The position numbers and the translations under genes were made by a program. From positions 1 to 24,975 of IMG/VR virus record IMGVR_UViG_3300042863_002847: a DNA stretch of 24,975 nt. The stretch is one strand, 5' to 3'. Source of the DNA: a virus. The notes beneath the pieces are model-generated. The model had not been told where the DNA came from and searched no databases. It saw only the letters and a list, made by a program, of their open reading frames with translations. This document shows, piece after piece, positions 5,345-23,854 of the stretch (positions within the stretch are counted from its first letter, which is position 1; each line of letters opens with the position of its first letter).

Positions 5345-8089
5345 ATGTGGTACTCAAGAATTATCGAATCTGCAACAGCCTGGGACGTTTTATCTACTAA
5401 AGAAGTTTCGTGGGCTGGATCCTTCTCCAGAACATTCAAAGATTTTTCATTTTACGATGCAAATGATATGCCAACAATGACTGCTTTGCTAAAACTCATA
5501 GGAGAAGTTGAAAAAGGCAAGGGCAATGATTCAATACTAGAAAAATATTTTGAAAAAGCAAAAGTCGATATTAATGCTTTATCAGATATTTCTATATTTT
5601 GTCATAGTATGTCAAGATTTATTGATAGTGAGATGAAAAAACAAGGAAGTTCTGCAAATACAGATATGATGAAAGTTTTAGACTTTCTTGGAAAACTTAA
5701 TGAATTTATTAGGTCGCAAGGCCAAGAAGGTTTGGAATTAGGTCAAAAAATTACAGACTATGATAGTCTGAAGTATTCTGTAAATAGTACACTAGGTATG
5801 GGCTACACTACACTTAACTTACTTTTACGAAAAGGCACAAATCTAAATGAATCTTTAGCTATGTTTGTCTTACGTGGAGATGATATTACTAGATTAGGAT
5901 ACCCATCAAGCGAACAGAGAAATATACTCGTTGATCAAATTATAGAGGCTAAGCCAGAATTACAATATTTTCAAGAACATATTAGTGTAATAAACTTAAT
6001 CAGACGTGGTGAAGGAAATTTTTACTTACCTCAAATAGAAGAATATATTTATTCAGGAATTGATGAAAGCAAAGTTTTAGAAGTTGTTTTTAAATTATTA
6101 TTACATGGTACCCCGCAAGATAAAGTTGCATCATTATTATCTTTACTTCCTAACAAATATAGACTAGAAGTTGCATTAAAAGTAGATGAGTACAAAGATT
6201 TTGAAAACTTCTCTCAAATTATGGCTTCTAGACTGTATTCGAGCATATCTTCGAGTGATTTCACATATGACGCATCTTTTCTTGAAAAATTAAAATCTTT
6301 CAAAACTTTTGTTGAACTAATTTACAGTAAAGGAGACGAATGTACTCCACTTTTCATACAAAAGGGACTTGCAAAACCTGAAGTTATAATTAGATATTTA
6401 GAAAAAAACCCAGAAGACTATGAAAAATTTTCCGAGGATATTTTAGATAGTCTTGGTGCTGAAATTAAAAATAAAGTTGTTAGAAATGGTGTTCAAGCAA
6501 AAACAAGAATACAAAATGATGGTTTTGCTGCTTTAGAAAAAGCACAATCAGAAAAAGTTATTCAAGTCAAAAAAGCATCTGAAACTTCCTATAACTGGGC
6601 TTATGGTAAAAATCCAAATAAAGCGATAGCTCCTAGTGGTATGTCTGAAAGTCAACTTAGACAGAAACAAAAAACAGACGAAGTTTTCGATAAATCTATG
6701 ATTTCTTACGAAGACCGTATGAAGCAAGAATCACCTTTTGCTGGTGTCAGTGAAGAAAACATTGAAAAATATGCTGATCAAATGGTGATTGTAGAGTTTA
6801 GTACTTGGGCTCTCAGAGATTTTATGAATAGGAATAATATTCCTAAGTTGAAAATAGGTCCAGTTGATTTTACAGAAGAAAAATGGGGAGGATTATTTGT
6901 ACCAAGATTTCCAACAAAGGATAGAGGTCCTGTTCCTGCAATCATCATCAAAACAGATATATGGCAGCAATTATCATATCACAAAGCATTAGCAGAAAAT
7001 ATAGGTATGGATGCCCAGCATTATCTTGAAGCAACAAAAAGACACGAAGTTGCTCACGCTTTGCAATATCTTCAGTCTGGTGATTTAACATTGCAAGATT
7101 CTGTCGAATTAAATCCAGAATTAACTCCAGAAGAAGCATATATTGCAAACCCGTCAGAACTTTATGCAAGAGTTCACGGAGATATACCTTATTTAACTAA
7201 AATATTTGATGCACATATTGGCAAATTGATGTCAGATCCAAAAATATATCAAGCAGCCAAAGAACAATGGATACTTGATATTCAAGACGAAATGGTTCAC
7301 TTGATGTCTGGTGGTACTAACGCCAAAAGATTACTTGAAGATATGGAAACTGGCAGATTTGGCAGTTACACAACATCTACTGGTAAAACGATAAAATTAT
7401 CAGATCCTCTTGAAGCAATTAACAAAATGTTGCAACGTCAAAGAAATAAATTAGAAATGATCTTCCACGAGACATTTCAAATTCAAGGAAGAAGAGACTA
7501 CAGAAGAGGTTTATTAGGTAAAAAAAATCAACTTGTTAGAGAAATTGAATCTTCTCCAATTTATAGTCCCGAAAGAACACAATTAGAAAAAGAATTAAAA
7601 GAAGTCCAATCAAAAATAGTTGAATCTGGAAAAATGTTAATCTTTGACGTAAAGGACGTTACTGAAGGAGTGGTTGAAGGATACCTAGCAGATTACTTTG
7701 GTAAAATTTCTAAGGCTGTAGCAGATGGATTGCTCACTACTGATGTTGTAAATCCAGAAGGTGCAGACAGATTGAAAGAAAATGCTCAATTGCGTGAAGA
7801 AGCAAAAAAACAAGAGCCTCCAACAGCTCGAGATATAAAAGAGCATTCAAGATTTCAAATTCAACAATCAGAACCTATCCCTAGCGGAAGAAAACTTGAT
7901 GTTATATTGCCAAGGTATAAGGGTGAAGGAATGCCCCCTGGAAATTTCCCTGGTTTTGAAAACGCAAAACAAGATGATAAGCAAGTTGATATTACTATTG
8001 AAAGAGATGAAGAAGAAACAGAAGAAAAGACTGCTAGTGTCTACAACCATAGAATATCAATCAAACAAAAAGTCTTCTCCAAGAATTAA
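5345..8089 (+). CDS. Large protein with HExxH metallopeptidase motif
   Basis: A 914-aa plus-strand protein. Residues about 1-400 are predicted helical and unrecognised. Around residues 560-625 there is a zinc-metallopeptidase signature: KRHEVAHALQYLQ, with H567, E568 and H571, followed 34 residues later by NPSELYARVHG, in which E605 is a plausible third zinc ligand (gluzincin-like arrangement). Long charged helices follow (residues 690-760), then a disordered D/E/K-rich tail. The start MWYSRI is shared in style with the plus-strand protein at 16228-16698 (MWYKIAQ). It may be a virion protein acting as a protease or entry enzyme, or a large polyvalent-type polyprotein. The specific substrate is unknown. 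No strong Shine-Dalgarno is present, and the last 33 bases overlap the opposing sigma-factor gene. Confidence 0.75.
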   Translation: MWYSRIIESATAWDVLSTKEVSWAGSFSRTFKDFSFYDANDMPTMTALLKLIGEVEKGKGNDSILEKYFEKAKVDINALSDISIFCHSMSRFIDSEMKKQGSSANTDMMKVLDFLGKLNEFIRSQGQEGLELGQKITDYDSLKYSVNSTLGMGYTTLNLLLRKGTNLNESLAMFVLRGDDITRLGYPSSEQRNILVDQIIEAKPELQYFQEHISVINLIRRGEGNFYLPQIEEYIYSGIDESKVLEVVFKLLLHGTPQDKVASLLSLLPNKYRLEVALKVDEYKDFENFSQIMASRLYSSISSSDFTYDASFLEKLKSFKTFVELIYSKGDECTPLFIQKGLAKPEVIIRYLEKNPEDYEKFSEDILDSLGAEIKNKVVRNGVQAKTRIQNDGFAALEKAQSEKVIQVKKASETSYNWAYGKNPNKAIAPSGMSESQLRQKQKTDEVFDKSMISYEDRMKQESPFAGVSEENIEKYADQMVIVEFSTWALRDFMNRNNIPKLKIGPVDFTEEKWGGLFVPRFPTKDRGPVPAIIIKTDIWQQLSYHKALAENIGMDAQHYLEATKRHEVAHALQYLQSGDLTLQDSVELNPELTPEEAYIANPSELYARVHGDIPYLTKIFDAHIGKLMSDPKIYQAAKEQWILDIQDEMVHLMSGGTNAKRLLEDMETGRFGSYTTSTGKTIKLSDPLEAINKMLQRQRNKLEMIFHETFQIQGRRDYRRGLLGKKNQLVREIESSPIYSPERTQLEKELKEVQSKIVESGKMLIFDVKDVTEGVVEGYLADYFGKISKAVADGLLTTDVVNPEGADRLKENAQLREEAKKQEPPTARDIKEHSRFQIQQSEPIPSGRKLDVILPRYKGEGMPPGNFPGFENAKQDDKQVDITIERDEEETEEKTASVYNHRISIKQKVFSKN

Positions 8090-8623
8090 CTTCATTTGTT
8101 CAAGAGCCTTTGAAAGTCTTTTGGAAAAGGCTCCTTGAGTTATTCCTACAGACTCTGCACACTCTTTTTGGTCTAATCCCTCAAAGAAATAAAGTTGGAT
8201 TACTTCTCTGCTTTTATCATTCAATTGCTTCATTGCTTCATGAATGCAAATTACATTATCGATCTTGTTAAATGGATCTTGGGATTCTTCTAGAAAATAA
8301 TCATCATCCAAAATTTCTTCTTTTGGAAAATATTTATCTGTGGCATATCTAAATAAATTTATGTCTATTCTTGTTGATAAGAAATAAGAAAAATAAGATA
8401 GTTTTGGATCATACTGATCAATTAATTTTCTTAAAACAAAAATACAGTCGCTTAATATGTCTTCTCTATGTGATGAAAGACGAGATTCTTTTTGAACAAT
8501 TCTCTTGACTGATGAAATAAAAAGAGGCTTATAAAATTCATATAAATCAAAAAGCGCAGATTCATTTCCCGCTTTATGTTTATATAAAAGCTTGTTTATT
8601 TCATCGTAATTGTTCTCTATCAT
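8057..8623 (-). CDS. ECF-like sigma-70 family RNA polymerase sigma factor
   Basis: A 188-aa sigma-like protein that would bind host RNA polymerase and direct it to phage promoters. A region 2-type segment lies at about residues 10-95 (HREDILSDCIFVL, then YDPKLSYFSYFLSTRI). A region 4 helix-turn-helix lies at about 131-180, with LNDKSREVIQLYFFEGLDQK followed by ECAESVGITQGAFSKRLSKA. Region 3 is short and region 1.1 is absent, as in ECF-type factors. The ATG at 8621-8623 lies exactly 6 bases after a TATAAT on the minus strand, suggesting a leaderless message. Its 3' end overlaps the convergent 914-aa gene by 33 bases, with no terminator visible between them. The promoters it controls are unknown. 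Confidence 0.88.
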   Translation of the reverse strand: MIENNYDEINKLLYKHKAGNESALFDLYEFYKPLFISSVKRIVQKESRLSSHREDILSDCIFVLRKLIDQYDPKLSYFSYFLSTRIDINLFRYATDKYFPKEEILDDDYFLEESQDPFNKIDNVICIHEAMKQLNDKSREVIQLYFFEGLDQKECAESVGITQGAFSKRLSKALEQMKLILGEDFLFD

Positions 8624-9633: not shown

Positions 9634-10731
9634 TTAATCCATTGGGAAAAGAACGTGCTTAAAATTATCACTCTCGAGCATCAATAATACGAAATCATTA
9701 TGCTTCAAGAAGTTTAACTTCAGATTTTTTGAATCTAGCAATTCTAAAACTTTTATCAAATGCGATGAAACGTAAGACACTGAAAGACATTCGTAATTTT
9801 CAACATCAATAGTATCAACAACAGCATTTTTTTCATTACTGGTTGCAGAAACAATTAATTTATTGATATCCAAGGTTAAGTTTATCATATGAGAGTTTGC
9901 AATATTAGAAACAAACTTAACTGACTGAATCAATGCGTCTTTTTTCAATTCTAAAGTAAGAAATGGACTGTATTGAAAAAACTGATTGAAGTTTAGAAAA
10001 ACTTTTTCAAAAGTATTTTTTTCAAGATTACAGCACAATTCTCCACTATCCCATGATAAATATAATTTATTGTTATGCAAGGAAAATTGGATTGCTGATA
10101 TTTTTTCAATATAAAAAAGTATGACATCTGAAATAGTTTTAGAAATTAAAAATGATTGTTGTAAATCATACTTATTTCCAAATATTGAAATTCTATGCTT
10201 GTCAGATGATTGAGAATTAATTTTACCATCTTCTAAAAACCAAAGGATAGAAGTGTAAGGATGTTCTTCAAAGTCTGGAGCACAAGAAAAAGATGTCATT
10301 TTGATACTGTGAACAAAATCATCTACTGTAATATCTAGAGTTTCTTTGTTTGTCAAAAAATGTAAATTGAAGTTATCAACAGGAACAGTGGCCAAAGATA
10401 CTCTGGTTTTTTTATTACCAAATATGAGAAGATTGTCTTCAGGATTATAGATAAATTGAACTTCTTCAGTGGGGAAGTTATTCAAAGCATTGTAGAAAGA
10501 AGAAATATCAAGCCCAAAAGATCCATTTTCTGAACAATTTACATTCTTAAGCAAAAATTTTGAACAACAGAAATTATTTTCCGACTGAATGTAAAGTTGA
10601 CCATCAATAGAGTGAAAAATGAGACTACTAGATGCAGCTTTATTTTCACGCATTGACAGTTTGGACTTTTCAATTTTGTTCAGTAAGGCAAAACATACAA
10701 TATGTTCTGCCTTGTTTAATTTAAATTTCAA
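9634..10731 (-). CDS. dnaN: DNA polymerase sliding clamp, bacterial beta type
   Basis: A 365-aa protein, the usual length of bacterial DnaN, which forms a dimeric ring that tethers polymerase to DNA. Visible marks are the second-domain signature SQSSDKHRISIF, corresponding to the TDGHRL region of DnaN, and the C-terminal HVLFPMD, corresponding to the family's terminal VMPMRL. The three repeated clamp domains fit the length. Its ATG overlaps the stop of the PurA/PurZ-like gene (ATGA at 10728-10731), and the delta-like gene follows after one base, so clamp and loader subunit are translationally coupled. Most T4-like phages use PCNA-type clamps instead, so a bacterial-style clamp indicates a Pol III-like or DnaN-dependent replisome. 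Confidence 0.85.
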   Translation of the reverse strand: MKFKLNKAEHIVCFALLNKIEKSKLSMRENKAASSSLIFHSIDGQLYIQSENNFCCSKFLLKNVNCSENGSFGLDISSFYNALNNFPTEEVQFIYNPEDNLLIFGNKKTRVSLATVPVDNFNLHFLTNKETLDITVDDFVHSIKMTSFSCAPDFEEHPYTSILWFLEDGKINSQSSDKHRISIFGNKYDLQQSFLISKTISDVILFYIEKISAIQFSLHNNKLYLSWDSGELCCNLEKNTFEKVFLNFNQFFQYSPFLTLELKKDALIQSVKFVSNIANSHMINLTLDINKLIVSATSNEKNAVVDTIDVENYECLSVSYVSSHLIKVLELLDSKNLKLNFLKHNDFVLLMLESDNFKHVLFPMD

Positions 10732-11723
10732 TGTATTTGCCCTTGGAATTCTACTTCTGTTTGAGAAAGATAAATCTTTACTTCCTTCAAAATATTAGAA
10801 ATAAATGTATCTTCATTTGCACAAGAAATCAACATATTATTTTCATAGTAATTCCAAGCACAATCAACTTGCCGAAGAACATCCATTTTATTGATGATTA
10901 GCTTTGTGACACCATTCATCTGACAAGCGGTGATTACTTCTTCAATGTTTAACCAATCGATTTGTCTTGGTCGTCCTGTTGTGGCTCCGTACTCTTGACC
11001 AATCTCACGCAACTGTTCAAATCTTTCGTCGTATTTTTGATATCCTTTAGCCCCAACATAGGTAGAATAACACTTGATAACCCCGATAACATTCCGTACT
11101 TGCTTATAATTGAAACCATTGTTTAATACTGCTCCTACTCCAGTGTTTGAAGAAGTGACGTAAGGATAATCACCAAAATCAATGTCAAGCCAATATCCTT
11201 GAGCACCTTCAGCTAAAAATTTCTTTGGGGAAGAATGAATAAGACTATACATATCAACTAGATATGGTTCTAGTTCAGGAACATCTTTGGCACGAAGACC
11301 TGTACGACCAACTTTGTCTTTATAACAAGGGCCATTTCCAGTGCGAGTTGTTCCAATAGTTGTATCTTTGGAATCTTCGTCAATATGATCTTGGGTAATT
11401 ATATGGGCGTTTTCTGCTATTTTAAGGATTGATGTATCGAATCCAAATCCTTCAAGATACTCAAGTTCGTCAAATAATTTTTGCGTATTGACAACACAAC
11501 CATTACCAATGACACTAGGAATGCCATGCAGAATACCACAAGGAACAAGATGTGTAACAATTTTCTCTCCGTTGAGGTAAATTGTATGACCAGCATTCCC
11601 TCCACCATTGAAGCGAACAACGTAGTCATATTCACCAGATGCAGCCATTTGATTGGCTATTTTCCCTTTGCCTTCATCACCATACTGCATACCGATAACT
11701 ACATCAACATTTGAAGTTTCCAT
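10728..11723 (-). CDS. Adenylosuccinate synthetase family enzyme (PurA/PurZ type)
   Basis: A 331-aa member of the adenylosuccinate synthetase family. PurA joins IMP and aspartate using GTP; phage PurZ acts on dGMP to start 2-aminoadenine (Z) synthesis. Visible motifs: GDEGKGK at 15-21 with the PurA catalytic Asp (D16), GGNAGHT with H46, GTTRTGNGPCYKDK, EGAQG at 172-176, PYVTSSNTGVG, aspartate-loop TTGRPR at 248-253, and guanine-recognition NKMD at 278-281. The length is near archaeal PurA and phage PurZ and about 100 residues shorter than typical bacterial PurA. Retained D16 and NKxD argue for GTP use and either PurA or the GTP-using PurZ0 type. Classical PurZ is reported to lack the Asp. It is coupled to the clamp gene by ATGA. 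No Shine-Dalgarno is seen; a small hairpin lies upstream. Confidence 0.88.
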   Translation of the reverse strand: METSNVDVVIGMQYGDEGKGKIANQMAASGEYDYVVRFNGGGNAGHTIYLNGEKIVTHLVPCGILHGIPSVIGNGCVVNTQKLFDELEYLEGFGFDTSILKIAENAHIITQDHIDEDSKDTTIGTTRTGNGPCYKDKVGRTGLRAKDVPELEPYLVDMYSLIHSSPKKFLAEGAQGYWLDIDFGDYPYVTSSNTGVGAVLNNGFNYKQVRNVIGVIKCYSTYVGAKGYQKYDERFEQLREIGQEYGATTGRPRQIDWLNIEEVITACQMNGVTKLIINKMDVLRQVDCAWNYYENNMLISCANEDTFISNILKEVKIYLSQTEVEFQGQIH

Positions 11724-12388: not shown

Positions 12389-13072
12389 TTATTTTTTGGG
12401 TATCTTATGAGACACATCCTTTTTTTCATCATCCTTAAATTGGATGTAGACTTCAGATGCTTTTTTTCTAATTCTTGTAAGTGCATTGTCCACACATTTT
12501 GCTGGGACTTGTAAGCTTTGTGAAATTTCTTTATATGATGAATTTTGTCCATACTCTACAAAAATTTCTGCCTCTAAAGAAGTAAGTTTATTTAGAAGCA
12601 TTGTTGAATTAATTTCTAATTCTTCTCTGACAATAAGGTCTTCAACTAAATTTACTTCTGGAGACTCATCGTAAGGATTTTTCTTGTCTGGAATATAATC
12701 ACCTAAGGAATGAAAATTTCCATCATCATTTAAGATAAAAGGAGCATCTAAAGAAACAGAATCATTCAACGCTGAATTTTTCATTCTTTTTGCTGATGCT
12801 ATTGCTGTAGCTAAGTGTCTTTTGCAGACAAGGTTGACACAAAAGTTCTTGAATGTAGTATCTTTAGTGCAGTCGTATGAGTTTACTGCCTTAAATACAC
12901 CTAATCTCAATTCTTGCATTACATCTTCTCTGTCTCCGCCGACTATGAAAAAGTGTGGTGCAATCTTTTTGAGATCTGGTTCTACCATCTTAAGCAACTT
13001 TTTAAAGGCTGCTTGATTACCTGCTTTTGCTCTGTTTACTATTCTAACTATTCTAAAATCTTCGGTTGCCAT
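12389..13072 (-). CDS. Sigma-H-like sigma-70 family factor
   Basis: A 227-aa sigma factor resembling Bacillus SigH. Region 2 is well kept at about residues 15-110: GGDREDVMQELRLGVFKAV, then TTFKNFCVNLVCKRHLATAI and SVSLDAP. A linker (residues 115-150) leads to a region 4 helix-turn-helix at about 160-205, LTSLEAEIF followed by SYKEISQSLQVPAKCVDNAL and TRIRKKA. It would redirect host RNA polymerase to a phage gene class. I chose the ATG at 13070-13072 (MATEDFR) because GGGAG lies five bases upstream at 13078-13082; an in-frame ATG six codons earlier lacks such a site. It sits between the DnaX-like gene and a protein of unknown function, so it may act as a middle or late switch. Confidence 0.88.
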   Translation of the reverse strand: MATEDFRIVRIVNRAKAGNQAAFKKLLKMVEPDLKKIAPHFFIVGGDREDVMQELRLGVFKAVNSYDCTKDTTFKNFCVNLVCKRHLATAIASAKRMKNSALNDSVSLDAPFILNDDGNFHSLGDYIPDKKNPYDESPEVNLVEDLIVREELEINSTMLLNKLTSLEAEIFVEYGQNSSYKEISQSLQVPAKCVDNALTRIRKKASEVYIQFKDDEKKDVSHKIPKK

Positions 13073-13077
13073 CAAAA

Positions 13078-13082
13078 CTCCC
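13078..13082 (-). promoter_or_regulatory. Ribosome binding site that sets the sigma-H-like start
   Basis: GGGAG on the minus strand, 5 bases before the ATG at 13070-13072. It favours this start over the in-frame ATG six codons upstream, which it overlaps as coding sequence. Confidence 0.7.
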
Positions 13083-13108
13083 GAAGGCATTGTCTTTACT
13101 ACATCTTT

Positions 13109-20647: not shown

Positions 20648-21034
20648 CTACAAGGCAAACTTGATATCAATAGCGAAGATTCTTGTAGAGATGCCTTTAG
20701 TCTTCTTTCCAGCTACTTCTGCATGATATTCGGACTGTCTGCATACAAGAACTGAACCATTTGTAAGACTTTCTACTTCTCTACTTGCTAATCTAAAAGC
20801 AGACATAACTGAGTTTAGTGCAGTAGGTCCAACACTTAGGATTCTAACATACTCATGGTCTTTCAGAACATGCAAAACACTACGACTTAAGCCAACAGGA
20901 TCAGTAGGTCTGCGTGAAGGATCTTGGTTGGTAGGATCTCCACCTCTTGCCTTTAAAATTCTTGGATCGTTTGTGACATTCTTTGATTTATCATTTGTTG
21001 CAATAATGCTAACAGGGTCTTCAATTTTTTCCAT
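20648..21034 (-). CDS. SpoVS-like (Alba-fold type) nucleic-acid-binding protein
   Basis: A 128-aa protein. Residues about 48-128 follow the SpoVS pattern: a helix SRSVLHVLKDH, then VRILSVGPTALNSVMSAFRL (SpoVS has a V/I-x-x-I-G-x-x-A-L-N-x-x-V-K-A segment), a strand with SVLVCRQSE, and a final GISTRIFAIDIKF strand. The first 45 residues are a disordered charged extension absent from SpoVS itself (86 aa). SpoVS affects sporulation in Bacillus and its family is thought to bind nucleic acid through an Alba-like fold. Here it sits between a sigma-like zinc-finger gene and an unknown, two bases apart on each side, so a transcription or RNA role is plausible. AGAGG about 10 bases upstream supports the start. 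Confidence 0.65.
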   Translation of the reverse strand: MEKIEDPVSIIATNDKSKNVTNDPRILKARGGDPTNQDPSRRPTDPVGLSRSVLHVLKDHEYVRILSVGPTALNSVMSAFRLASREVESLTNGSVLVCRQSEYHAEVAGKKTKGISTRIFAIDIKFAL

Positions 21035-21036
21035 CT

Positions 21037-22011
21037 TTAATTTTCCTCTAAGCCAATAATTGATAGCTTTGACTTAATATTTTCTACAGCGTTGTTAAAC
21101 TCTAAAGCAGTGCAATTGTATAGCTTAGAATCGAATTTTAATTTCAATGAACCGTTCAAAATATTATTGACTATTTTTGTTTCAATATCAGTCATGCTTA
21201 GACTGAGTAAATCATTAACCTTATTTGAATCTTTGATGTTGTCGTAAAAACACACATCCTCACTATCATCATCTTCAGACATGTAAACACTTAGTGCTCT
21301 TGGAGAAACTGTTTGATGGTCAGGATAGAGTTCATTGAATTTTTGGAAAAGCATACTGGAATGTTTAGAAAGAATATGTTTCTTAATAACAGCAGTCCTT
21401 TTTTCAATCATGCAACTTTCACAAGCACCATCTTGTTTACTCGTACATTCTTCAGAACAATCATAAGATCTAGGCATCTTGTGATTCTTACAAAAAGGAC
21501 ATCTTTCTAACTCTTCTAAAATAATTCCAGTATTCTTTAAGTGATCCCAAAGAATATGGTGATGGTGATTTAAGATATGAGTAGATAAAGGATTGACCCA
21601 CTTTTCACAAATTGGGCATTTCTGTGTTGGATTTCTTTTACCAGCATTGTCAGCTTTAACTAGATTAATATAGTTGTGTTGAAGAGCGCCAATAAAGTAA
21701 TTCTTAAACTCTCCACTTCCACCATATCTTGATATTTTTCTTGTATTTCTTGGCTTCCAATTTGATAAAACATTGCAAAATATTTTTATATAATCAGAGG
21801 CAAAATCTTCTTGAGAGTCATACAAATAATGATATTGACTCCACCACTCCTGCATATGTAAATAGGGAGGGTAAAGCTTGCAAACTTCCTTATAGCTTCT
21901 GTCTATTTTCCACTTATTTCCTGTTAATAACGAATCTTGATAACGAAGTATTGATTTTTCTAAGTTTTCTTGATTTTTCAACTTGATTTGCTTTGTAATA
22001 TCTTGCTCCAC
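21037..22011 (-). CDS. Sigma-like protein with inserted zinc fingers
   Basis: A 324-aa protein with three parts. Residues about 55-120 resemble sigma region 2: SQEDFASDYIKIFCNVLSNW, then GSGEFKNYFIGALQHNYINL. Residues 130-220 hold zinc-binding clusters: C132/C135 with H145/H149 (a C2H2 finger), then C171/C174, C185/C189, C197/C200 and H212/H217. Residues about 268-320 look like a region 4 helix-turn-helix: LSMTDIETKIVNNILNGSLK and following, to NAVENIKSKL. The order sigma2, zinc fingers, sigma4 is not one I know from described factors. It could be a promoter-specificity factor or a remodelled transcription regulator. The start is GTG at 22009-22011 with GGAG about 7 bases upstream and a promoter just before. 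First gene of a three-gene operon. Confidence 0.6.
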   Translation of the reverse strand: MEQDITKQIKLKNQENLEKSILRYQDSLLTGNKWKIDRSYKEVCKLYPPYLHMQEWWSQYHYLYDSQEDFASDYIKIFCNVLSNWKPRNTRKISRYGGSGEFKNYFIGALQHNYINLVKADNAGKRNPTQKCPICEKWVNPLSTHILNHHHHILWDHLKNTGIILEELERCPFCKNHKMPRSYDCSEECTSKQDGACESCMIEKRTAVIKKHILSKHSSMLFQKFNELYPDHQTVSPRALSVYMSEDDDSEDVCFYDNIKDSNKVNDLLSLSMTDIETKIVNNILNGSLKLKFDSKLYNCTALEFNNAVENIKSKLSIIGLEEN

Positions 22012-22034: not shown

Positions 22035-22062
22035 ATTATACTTTAATTATTTTAAAAGTAAA
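22035..22062 (-). promoter_or_regulatory. Sigma-70-type promoter for the zinc-finger sigma operon
   Basis: On the minus strand TTTACT (22057-22062), a 16-base spacer and TATAAT (22035-22040). The expected start is about 17 bases before the GTG start, leaving room for the GGAG ribosome site. The -35 lies next to the recJ stop codon. Confidence 0.55.
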
Positions 22063-22063
22063 C

Positions 22064-23854
22064 TTAAGTTGGCTTTATATCTTCTACTATCATTACGAGA
22101 TTATTATTACCAGACCAGTTGTCTAACTCTAGTGTGTAAACAACATCAACTTTTTGCCCTGGAGAAAACTCGTTGCAAATATACCCTTTTCTCCAAGCAT
22201 TTGCAGCAATCCAAGTTTTTTCTCCATTAGACAATTTTAGTTTTGCATGTTTTCCTTGAGTCAAAGATTTTGCTTCTACTAGTGTCAGATTTTTGGATAT
22301 AAAAATAGGATTGTGATTCATACTTCCAAAAGGTGAAATCTTTGACAAATGAACATATGTCTTTATATTCAAATCACTAAACGACATACGAGCATCAATA
22401 TCAATCACTCTTTCCTTGACTGGTTCTCCAAGTCTGTCTTGAGCATAGTCATTTAGGGCTTTTCTCATTGCAGGAATATTATCTATAGAAAGTTCAAAAC
22501 CAGCAGCAAAAGCATGTCCTCCACAAACAGTACTTCCATCTGCTCTTTTCTTAAATAGTTTCCACGCCTCTTCAGACTTTAAAGCTTCAAGAATATTAAA
22601 ATCTCTAGTAGAACGACAAGAACCTTTGGCATATCCATCTTTCTTGAATGAGCAAACGAGAGTGGGTTTGTTATAAACTTCTGCAATTTTACCCGCAATA
22701 AGACCAATCAATCCTGGATGCCAATCGTCTGCTCCAAGGATTAATATATGTTCTTTTTCTAAATCAAAATTGTTTTGAACAAAGTCTATAGCTTGCTGAG
22801 TTGCTTTCTCTTGTTGTTCTTGCCTTCGAGTGTTTGCATTGTTCATTTGTTTAGCAAGATTTGCAGCAGTAATCTCATCTTTTGCTAACATCAAACTCAA
22901 AGCAGTTCCAGCATCTGCAAGCCTACCTATAGCGTTAATTCTAGGCCCAATTTGAAAGCCAATAGTTGTCGGAGTAACGTCTTTGACACCAGCAATTCGC
23001 AGTAGTTCTTTAATTCCAGGTTTGCTACTTCTAGATAAAATAGAACAGCCATAATTGACTATGACTCTATTTTCATCAATCATTGGTGCTACGTCAGCAA
23101 CAGTTCCCAAAGCAGCAAACTCAATAAGTTCATCAAGAAACTCATAAACATTTAGTTTTCTATATTTTGCAAGACCTAGCATTAATTTGAAAGCAATGCC
23201 ACAGCCAGCAAGATAGTCAAATGGATATCTACTAAAATCATCTTTCTTATGAGACTTAAAATGCTCGCCTGGATAAAAAGGATCATCTCTGTTTGGGTTT
23301 ACTACTGCCATTGCTTCTGGGAGAGAACCATCTTCACTAGGATGATGGTGGTCTGTAATAATCAAATCTAGATTTTTCTCTTTTGCATATGCTCCAGTTT
23401 CAAAAGCAACAATTCCACAGTCAACACTCATAAGAAGTGATGCACCCGATGCTAATGCTTGATCTACAGAATGAACCTTGATGTCATATCCATCTTCCAT
23501 CCTGTGAGGAACTTTGTATTCCATATTTGCTCCCATTTTTTCAAGAGCAGTTACAACAATAGCCGTAGATGTAATCCCATCTACGTCATAGTCTCCCCAT
23601 ACAAAAATCTTTTCTCCTGAATCAATTGCTTTGCTAATTCTTTCTATAGCAATTTGAGCATCAGGTAAATCAAATGGATTATGAAGTTTGTTTATTTTTA
23701 AATCTAAGAATTGTTCGGCTTTATGGACGGAATCAATCCCACGAGTCAGCATTACTTGTGCTATTGGTAATGGTATTTCTAATTCACAAGCAAATTCTTT
23801 AGCATGACTCATATCACAATCACGCATTTTCCACAATGTTTCAATTCTATCCAT
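22064..23854 (-). CDS. recJ: Single-stranded-DNA exonuclease RecJ
   Basis: A 596-aa RecJ, which degrades single-stranded DNA 5' to 3' in recombination and repair. The DHH catalytic half shows DYDVDG at residues 88-93, SVDCG at 143-147, and TDHHHP at 167-172. Further family blocks are LGTVADVAPM at 249-258, NAIGRLADA at 307-315 and WHPGLIGLIAGKI at 378-390. DHHA1 follows with CGGHAFAAGF at 444-453, then an OB-type C-terminal domain. All expected acidic and His ligands are present, and length matches bacterial RecJ, so it should be active. It overlaps the primase-core gene by 8 bases, indicating coupling; a replication-fork or end-processing role with that primase is likely. AAGAG lies six bases before the ATG. 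Confidence 0.95.
   Translation of the reverse strand: MDRIETLWKMRDCDMSHAKEFACELEIPLPIAQVMLTRGIDSVHKAEQFLDLKINKLHNPFDLPDAQIAIERISKAIDSGEKIFVWGDYDVDGITSTAIVVTALEKMGANMEYKVPHRMEDGYDIKVHSVDQALASGASLLMSVDCGIVAFETGAYAKEKNLDLIITDHHHPSEDGSLPEAMAVVNPNRDDPFYPGEHFKSHKKDDFSRYPFDYLAGCGIAFKLMLGLAKYRKLNVYEFLDELIEFAALGTVADVAPMIDENRVIVNYGCSILSRSSKPGIKELLRIAGVKDVTPTTIGFQIGPRINAIGRLADAGTALSLMLAKDEITAANLAKQMNNANTRRQEQQEKATQQAIDFVQNNFDLEKEHILILGADDWHPGLIGLIAGKIAEVYNKPTLVCSFKKDGYAKGSCRSTRDFNILEALKSEEAWKLFKKRADGSTVCGGHAFAAGFELSIDNIPAMRKALNDYAQDRLGEPVKERVIDIDARMSFSDLNIKTYVHLSKISPFGSMNHNPIFISKNLTLVEAKSLTQGKHAKLKLSNGEKTWIAANAWRKGYICNEFSPGQKVDVVYTLELDNWSGNNNLVMIVEDIKPT

Follow-up and report, generated by a model that had tools for sequence, protein, structure and literature searches.

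ZnSig, a Divergent Sigma-70-Like Protein with a Putative Internal Zinc Module in Uncultured Jumbo Phages

Introduction

What kind of protein carries sigma-like regions at both of its ends and a block of paired cysteines and histidines between them? The question is raised by an open reading frame on the minus strand of a 24,975-base stretch from an uncultured virus record of IMG/VR (IMGVR_UViG_3300042863_002847; this whole stretch is further called the window), which is located at 21037..22011, starts with GTG and encodes 324 amino acids. The initial annotation, made from the sequence alone, read the product as a sigma-like factor interrupted by zinc fingers and as a possible new class of phage specificity factor. 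The reading frame is present on the minus strand and kept across ~30 contigs, and its product, here termed ZnSig (a divergent sigma-70-like protein with an internal zinc module), is a real, conserved variant of the sigma-70 family that none of the sources searched describes. ZnSig is carried by a clade of uncultured jumbo phages, on contigs of up to 379 kb. As judged from sequences and models, ZnSig most likely serves the host polymerase as an alternative sigma factor, and we consider it probable that this highly divergent member of the family redirects that polymerase to phage promoters.

Two scans of IMG/VR returned relatives that range from 93% down to 58–60% identity, and the use of the neighbouring SpoVS-like protein and of diverged alignments as queries extended the family to 39–47% identity. 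A rescan seeded with the members that had diverged most brought up no contig that was not already known, so that at this sensitivity the family in IMG/VR looks exhausted, at ~30 contigs of uncultured phages; the longest of them reach 300–379 kb. An extra copy is carried by a 5-kb contig binned with a metagenome-assembled genome (MAG) of Candidatus Kapaibacterium. In 50,697 deposited phage records no homologue was detected by four tblastn searches, one with the window protein and three with divergent relatives. Since the family is conserved and is missing from the deposited phages, the proposal of a new class of phage specificity factor seems reasonable. All conservation counts given below as 25/25 refer to a 25-member ZnSig alignment.

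Sigma-Like Regions at the Two Ends of ZnSig

A sigma profile, composed of 27 canonical sigma factors from the ZnSig phages, the window and the MAG, was compared by hhalign with pieces of the 25-member alignment, and the controls were 200 column shuffles, the reversed alignment and 12 decoy families taken from these phages. Residues 1–131 align to sigma region 2 with a score of 27.9 (P 0.0008; decoys ≤18.0, shuffles ≤21.0, reversed 13.1), and residues 255–324 align to sigma region 4, over positions 271–317, with a score of 23.4 (P 0.0018; decoys ≤14.8, shuffles ≤19.0, reversed 9.9), the region 4 match being the weaker one. The two ends are separate tests, each of which lands at the expected sigma region and in the correct order, while the middle of the protein (residues 128–222) gave no match to the sigma profile (score 10.8). 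According to hhalign and the structural matches described below, the region 2-like domain comprises residues 10–128 (21628..21984, minus strand), and according to hhalign and the predicted helices the region 4-like helix-turn-helix comprises residues 271–319 (21055..21201, minus strand). The initial annotation had placed a region 2-like part at residues 55–120, which holds as to the match and is too narrow as to the limits (actually ~12–128), and a region 4-like helix-turn-helix at 268–320, with which profile and model (~271–319) agree.

Scanned against Pfam, PHROGs and NCBIfam, the window protein alone yielded nothing significant, its sole NCBIfam match being a weak one to the WhiG sigma factor. 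The NCBIfam scan of the 25 members gave repeated weak sigma matches (TIGR02937, SigH, WhiG). The relative L074 matched TIGR02937 (sigma70-ECF) with residues 65–323 (model positions 16–159, E=0.0019), a span that includes both sigma regions and, between them, the zinc module, and another relative, L078, matched the same model in region 2 (E=0.19). Searches of PDB sequences with ZnSig alignments gave weak unrelated matches only.

Structure prediction had been named, along with the initial annotation, as a check on the sigma2/sigma4 fold, and it makes both ends look like those of sigma factors. A first AlphaFold2 model, obtained with 15 sequences, had a predicted local distance difference test score (pLDDT) of 70.6, and because of this lower confidence the prediction was rerun with 25 sequences (pLDDT 79.4); the placement of domains in this second model is uncertain, since its predicted template modelling score is 0.42. 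VIA-align was run on the top Foldseek chains. With the 25-sequence model all 50 PDB entries listed were sigma factors, most of the listed matches extending over approximately residues 12–320 with ~160 residues aligned, in pieces that were placed separately; with the 15-sequence model the first 46 matches were sigma factors, mostly through region 2 alone, at a root-mean-square deviation (rmsd) of ~3–4 Å. Neither model gave a significant Foldseek match in BFVD. The helices of the region 4-like part are predicted at residues 275–285, 295–298 and 302–319.

The residues kept within the family point in the same direction as the profiles. A stretch resembling the core-binding region 2.2 (residues 65–88; 21748..21819, minus strand) retains D69, F70, an acidic residue (D or E) at position 73, W85 and P87 in 25/25 members, and we take D69 and the acidic residue 73 to be the equivalents of D403 and E407, acidic core-binding residues of region 2.2 in E. 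coli sigma70. The best conserved part of ZnSig is the 2.3/2.4 helix (mean pairwise identity 0.83), used by sigma factors to recognise and melt the −10 element; the corresponding value for region 4 is ~46%, with C300 being invariant there. Judged by alignments and predicted structure, the homology of the two ends to sigma regions 2 and 4 holds, though remotely.

The extreme C-terminus (window positions 21037–21070) reads M-S-L-x-G-[LI]-E in many members, and MSLFGLEG in L009. There is a loose resemblance to the motifs that bind sliding clamps, and a phage clamp gene lies at 9634–10731 of the window.

The Zinc Module and the Acidic Linker

Regions 2 and 4 of ZnSig are separated by ~140 residues, in which eight putative ligands (C132, C135, H145, H150, C171, C174, H212 and H217) are invariant in 25/25 members. 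The first four belong to zinc finger 1 (residues 129–152; 21556..21627, minus strand), which shows a CxxC pair, paired histidines and a predicted beta-beta-alpha fold, with strands at residues 130–131 and 138–139 and a helix at 142–149, as is expected of a C2H2 finger. Zinc finger 2 (residues 171–217; 21361..21501, minus strand) has its ligands in place and is less classical, C174 and H212 being separated by a long spacer. Nested inside it is a putative zinc knuckle (residues 185–200; 21412..21459, minus strand), formed by C185, C197, C200 and one further cysteine or histidine at position 189, 187 or a shifted position. The knuckle ligands are complete in 20 members and jointly missing in five (L078–L082), which retain both fingers; the knuckle is therefore a separable insertion within finger 2. 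Weak matches to C2H2-type models were also obtained (zf-Di19 in 11/25 members, zf-C2H2_4 in 7/25). By alignment and model, the middle of ZnSig holds two C2H2-type fingers and an optional third site. All cysteines and histidines originally listed in this block are indeed present, although H149 varies and it is H150 that serves as the second histidine of finger 1 in 25/25 members; as to their grouping, the assignment of C132/C135/H145 to one finger stands, and C171/C174, listed as a pair of their own, are to be combined with H212/H217 around the knuckle.

The fingers are followed by an acidic stretch (residues 236–272, 36–40 residues in length) that leads to region 4 and contains 5–12 D/E in every member. 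Within it a low-confidence linker is placed at residues 237–270 (21202..21303, minus strand), and residues 237–261 have pLDDT <50. In position and character this linker resembles sigma 3.2. The linker between sigma2 and sigma4 of ECF factors is essential and threads through the active-site cleft and the RNA exit channel like sigma 3.2 (PMC6411747).

Transcription Machinery and the Proposed Mechanism

ZnSig does not stand alone in these phages. The window encodes two ordinary sigma factors, the sigma-70 factor sA (8057..8623, minus strand; TIGR02937, E=3.5e-20) and the SigH-like factor sB (12389..13090, minus strand; SigH family, E=1.1e-31), and orthologues of both are present in 8/8 phage records tested. 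No multisubunit RNA polymerase (beta/beta') was found in five phage records of 300–379 kb, which are possibly incomplete, whereas the control was positive in 14/14 genomes; this makes the host enzyme the likely partner of ZnSig. In a 358-kb relative, host-type promoters (TTGACA or TTGCA, a spacer, and ATGATATAAT) cluster at ~140–200 kb, which is probably the early gene region, and this is consistent with host sigma directing the early genes. About ten intergenic copies of this promoter, a strong one, were noted there (L179–L196), several of them followed by a start of the form ATGGAAAAC.

The following mechanism may be proposed, in which the folds and conserved residues come from prediction and alignment and the contacts with polymerase and promoter are drawn by analogy with sigma-70 biology. 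The sigma 2 domain (residues ~12–128) would dock on the beta' clamp of the host enzyme via acidic region 2.2, the long and nearly invariant 2.3/2.4 helix would open the −10 element, and sigma 4 (residues 271–319) would sit on the beta flap and read a −35-type element. The two C2H2 fingers and the optional knuckle would replace domain 3, probably positioned above the spacer of the promoter or else on the core. Behind them, the acidic stretch would take the role of sigma 3.2 by threading toward the active site and the RNA exit channel. ZnSig would then bring the number of phage specificity factors to three. Because the phages appear to lack a multisubunit polymerase of their own and carry two ordinary sigma factors, it probably forms one stage in a cascade of sigma factors.

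If this is true, a bacterial-type RNA polymerase could be steered by a sigma factor with a central zinc-finger array, a layout more familiar from eukaryotic transcription factors. The linker between sigma2 and sigma4, thought of as a flexible strand that threads through the polymerase, would then be able to accommodate a folded module. The jumbo-phage clade would also gain a third conserved sigma-like factor, one with no relative in the deposited phage collection searched.

Gene Neighbourhood and Promoter

The order recJ–ZnSig–SpoVS-like is kept in the examined loci with enough flanking sequence, and within the close clade it extends to primase–recJ–ZnSig–SpoVS-like–small gene–nrdB–nrdA. In the window, recJ (22064..23854, minus strand; assigned by family scans and synteny) is the conserved upstream neighbour, and the SpoVS-like gene (20648..21034, minus strand), which adjoins ZnSig in the loci examined, starts 2 nt past the ZnSig stop. 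The only Pfam match of this neighbour is PF04232 SpoVS, obtained in 5/7 members with a best E of 0.0084, which is below the cut-off; SpoVS is a member of the Alba superfamily (PMC11621453). ZnSig had been thought to head an operon with the SpoVS-like gene, which does follow it, but ZnSig is itself preceded on this strand by primase and recJ.

The gap between recJ and ZnSig measures 52 nt and contains a promoter-like site, TTTACT-N16-TATAAT (22035..22062, minus strand). Nearly all close relatives have in this gap a −35 of TTTACA or TTTCTA together with a −10 of TATAAT or CATAAT, the pair usually being located 21–27 nt before the ZnSig start. The match in the window alone is non-significant, being equalled by ~10% of shuffles, and most relatives do no better than shuffles. 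Since single sequences are so little informative, the case for a promoter of its own, already suggested for the window, has to rest on the position kept across relatives; with this restriction, ZnSig is probably transcribed from a host-type promoter. Two relatives, L014 and L023, carry an inverted repeat, GCCACATTAA...TTAATGTGGC, downstream of the promoter-like site and ahead of the ZnSig start.

Downstream of the locus in L078 (9177–10776) there are PhoU-like and Pit-type phosphate transporter-like proteins, as judged by eye, which could be auxiliary genes of phosphate uptake. In L079 and L081 the ribonucleotide reductase pair downstream of the SpoVS-like gene looks swapped for a different and shorter pair (324 and 549 aa) in the same place. 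Elsewhere in the window, at 10728–11723 on the minus strand, a 331-aa adenylosuccinate synthetase-like protein is encoded (best PHROG match phrog_1211, '2-aminooxy adenylosuccinate synthetase', E 3.4e-69). It might be connected with PurZ and a modified (Z) genome, but it retains the GDEGKGK motif.

Alternative Explanations

How well, then, does an alternative sigma factor account for ZnSig? A number of results weigh against it. The curated cut-off was reached by no match (the best one to TIGR02937 has 17.8 bits vs. 42.9), Pfam sigma domains matched neither the window protein nor the members, and on L074 the unrelated and spurious-looking NCBIfam family HglS scored slightly better than sigma (E=0.00046), so that the sigma match of L074 is by itself no proof. 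The probabilities given by hhalign are modest (24% and 15%). On the structural side, Foldseek E-values are non-significant (best PDB chain 1.7, with the first model), the VIA-align Z is at most 8.2–8.4, a range in which chance matches of helical bundles can occur, and the two sigma domains of ZnSig superpose only as separate pieces, with an overall rmsd of ~19. Moreover, a search of the sequences ahead of the genes in the 358-kb relative found no second promoter class, and no target promoter of ZnSig can be named.

That every sigma match stays below its curated cut-off would suit a DNA- or RNA-binding C2H2 protein, the sigma-like helical flanks of which are convergent, perhaps a replication or chromatin factor acting with RecJ, primase and SpoVS; the location of ZnSig among replication and nucleotide genes and the weak C2H2-type matches of many members speak for it too. 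However, both ends match the sigma profile at the right regions and above decoys and shuffles, and all PDB matches listed for the better model are sigma factors, which makes such a protein distinctly unlikely. No full-length match to an unrelated zinc-finger family was obtained either. Less improbable, though still unlikely, is a sigma-derived regulator that does not initiate, i.e., an anti-sigma, co-activator or polymerase-appropriation factor that binds the core while sA and sB recognise promoters. Two ordinary sigma factors are at hand in every record tested, and region 4 is the more degraded end (~46% mean pairwise identity vs. 83% for the 2.3/2.4 helix). A pure anti-sigma would, however, need neither an acidic sigma 3.2-like linker, which ZnSig retains, nor the 2.3/2.4 helix, devoted in sigmas to −10 recognition and melting, which is its most conserved part. 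The zinc module may also be imagined not as a contact surface but as a sensor that switches the activity of a metal- or redox-responsive sigma, as in CorE and CorE2, the former having metal-binding cysteines in the sigma2–sigma4 linker and also a C-terminal Cys-rich domain (PMC8999054); the invariant C300 in region 4 would fit this as well. Yet CxxC/HxxxxH sites, with finger 1 predicted as a classical beta-beta-alpha, usually hold zinc tightly, and a metal sensor would presumably be of little obvious use to a lytic phage, so we regard this explanation as very improbable.

Two further ideas were discarded. VLTF3-like late transcription factor or RBX1/RING homology gave chance-level weak matches only, and a TFIIB-like origin of ZnSig found no supporting match.

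Beyond an alternative sigma factor as such, it is conceivable but doubtful that the tandem C2H2 fingers, in the place of domain 3, read the promoter spacer sequence-specifically and, with the SpoVS/Alba-like neighbour, define a phage-only class of promoters. As a whole, the initially suggested layout of sigma 2, zinc module and sigma 4 is borne out by profiles with decoys, structure prediction and conservation, while the finger contacts and the transcription-directing role are still what we infer.

Comparison with Known Sigma Factors

With ECF (group 4) and SigH-type members of the sigma-70 family ZnSig shares region 2 followed by region 4, the acidic region 2.2, the long 2.3/2.4 helix and the C-terminal helix-turn-helix. 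It differs from them in having ~140 residues with two or three putative zinc sites between the two regions, and in a sequence too divergent for curated models. An ECF factor consists of sigma 2 and sigma 4 with a linker free of folded domains; ZnSig is not a standard one, because of its long folded middle with two invariant CxxC/HxxxxH sites. Since it shows the structural features of sigma-70 that were tested and falls short of curated cut-offs, it is best filed as a divergent variant.

Among phage proteins, the sigma factors of group 2 jumbo phages, T4 gp55 and SPO1 gp28/gp34 match the role proposed for ZnSig in being phage-encoded specificity subunits of host polymerase in phages without an enzyme of their own (PMC7824862, PMC9429907). 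The jumbo-phage survey describes minimal helix-turn-helix and RpoD-like sigma factors, and a term search of its text showed no zinc-finger insert for these types (PMC7824862); ZnSig differs in having such an insert and in not having been found in deposited phages. In the open-access papers searched, nothing relevant on a zinc-finger sigma factor was found.

The initial annotation held that known sigma-70 factors carry no C2H2 fingers between regions 2 and 4; this stands insofar as the sites of CorE are not C2H2, but it needs a caveat, since the sigma2–sigma4 linker of CorE-type ECF factors contains a CXC motif, and these factors also possess a C-terminal Cys-rich domain (PMC8999054). CorE and CorE2 (ECF44/ECF238) thus share with ZnSig putative metal ligands in that linker, whereas ZnSig has CxxC–HxxxxH fingers instead of a CXC motif and ends right after region 4, with no C-terminal extension. 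The ZAS-fused factors (ECF48/52/53) likewise combine a sigma factor and a zinc-binding domain on a single chain; in these the zinc domain is an anti-sigma with membrane helices, located at the C-terminus (PMC8999054), while that of ZnSig is internal, between the two sigma-like regions.
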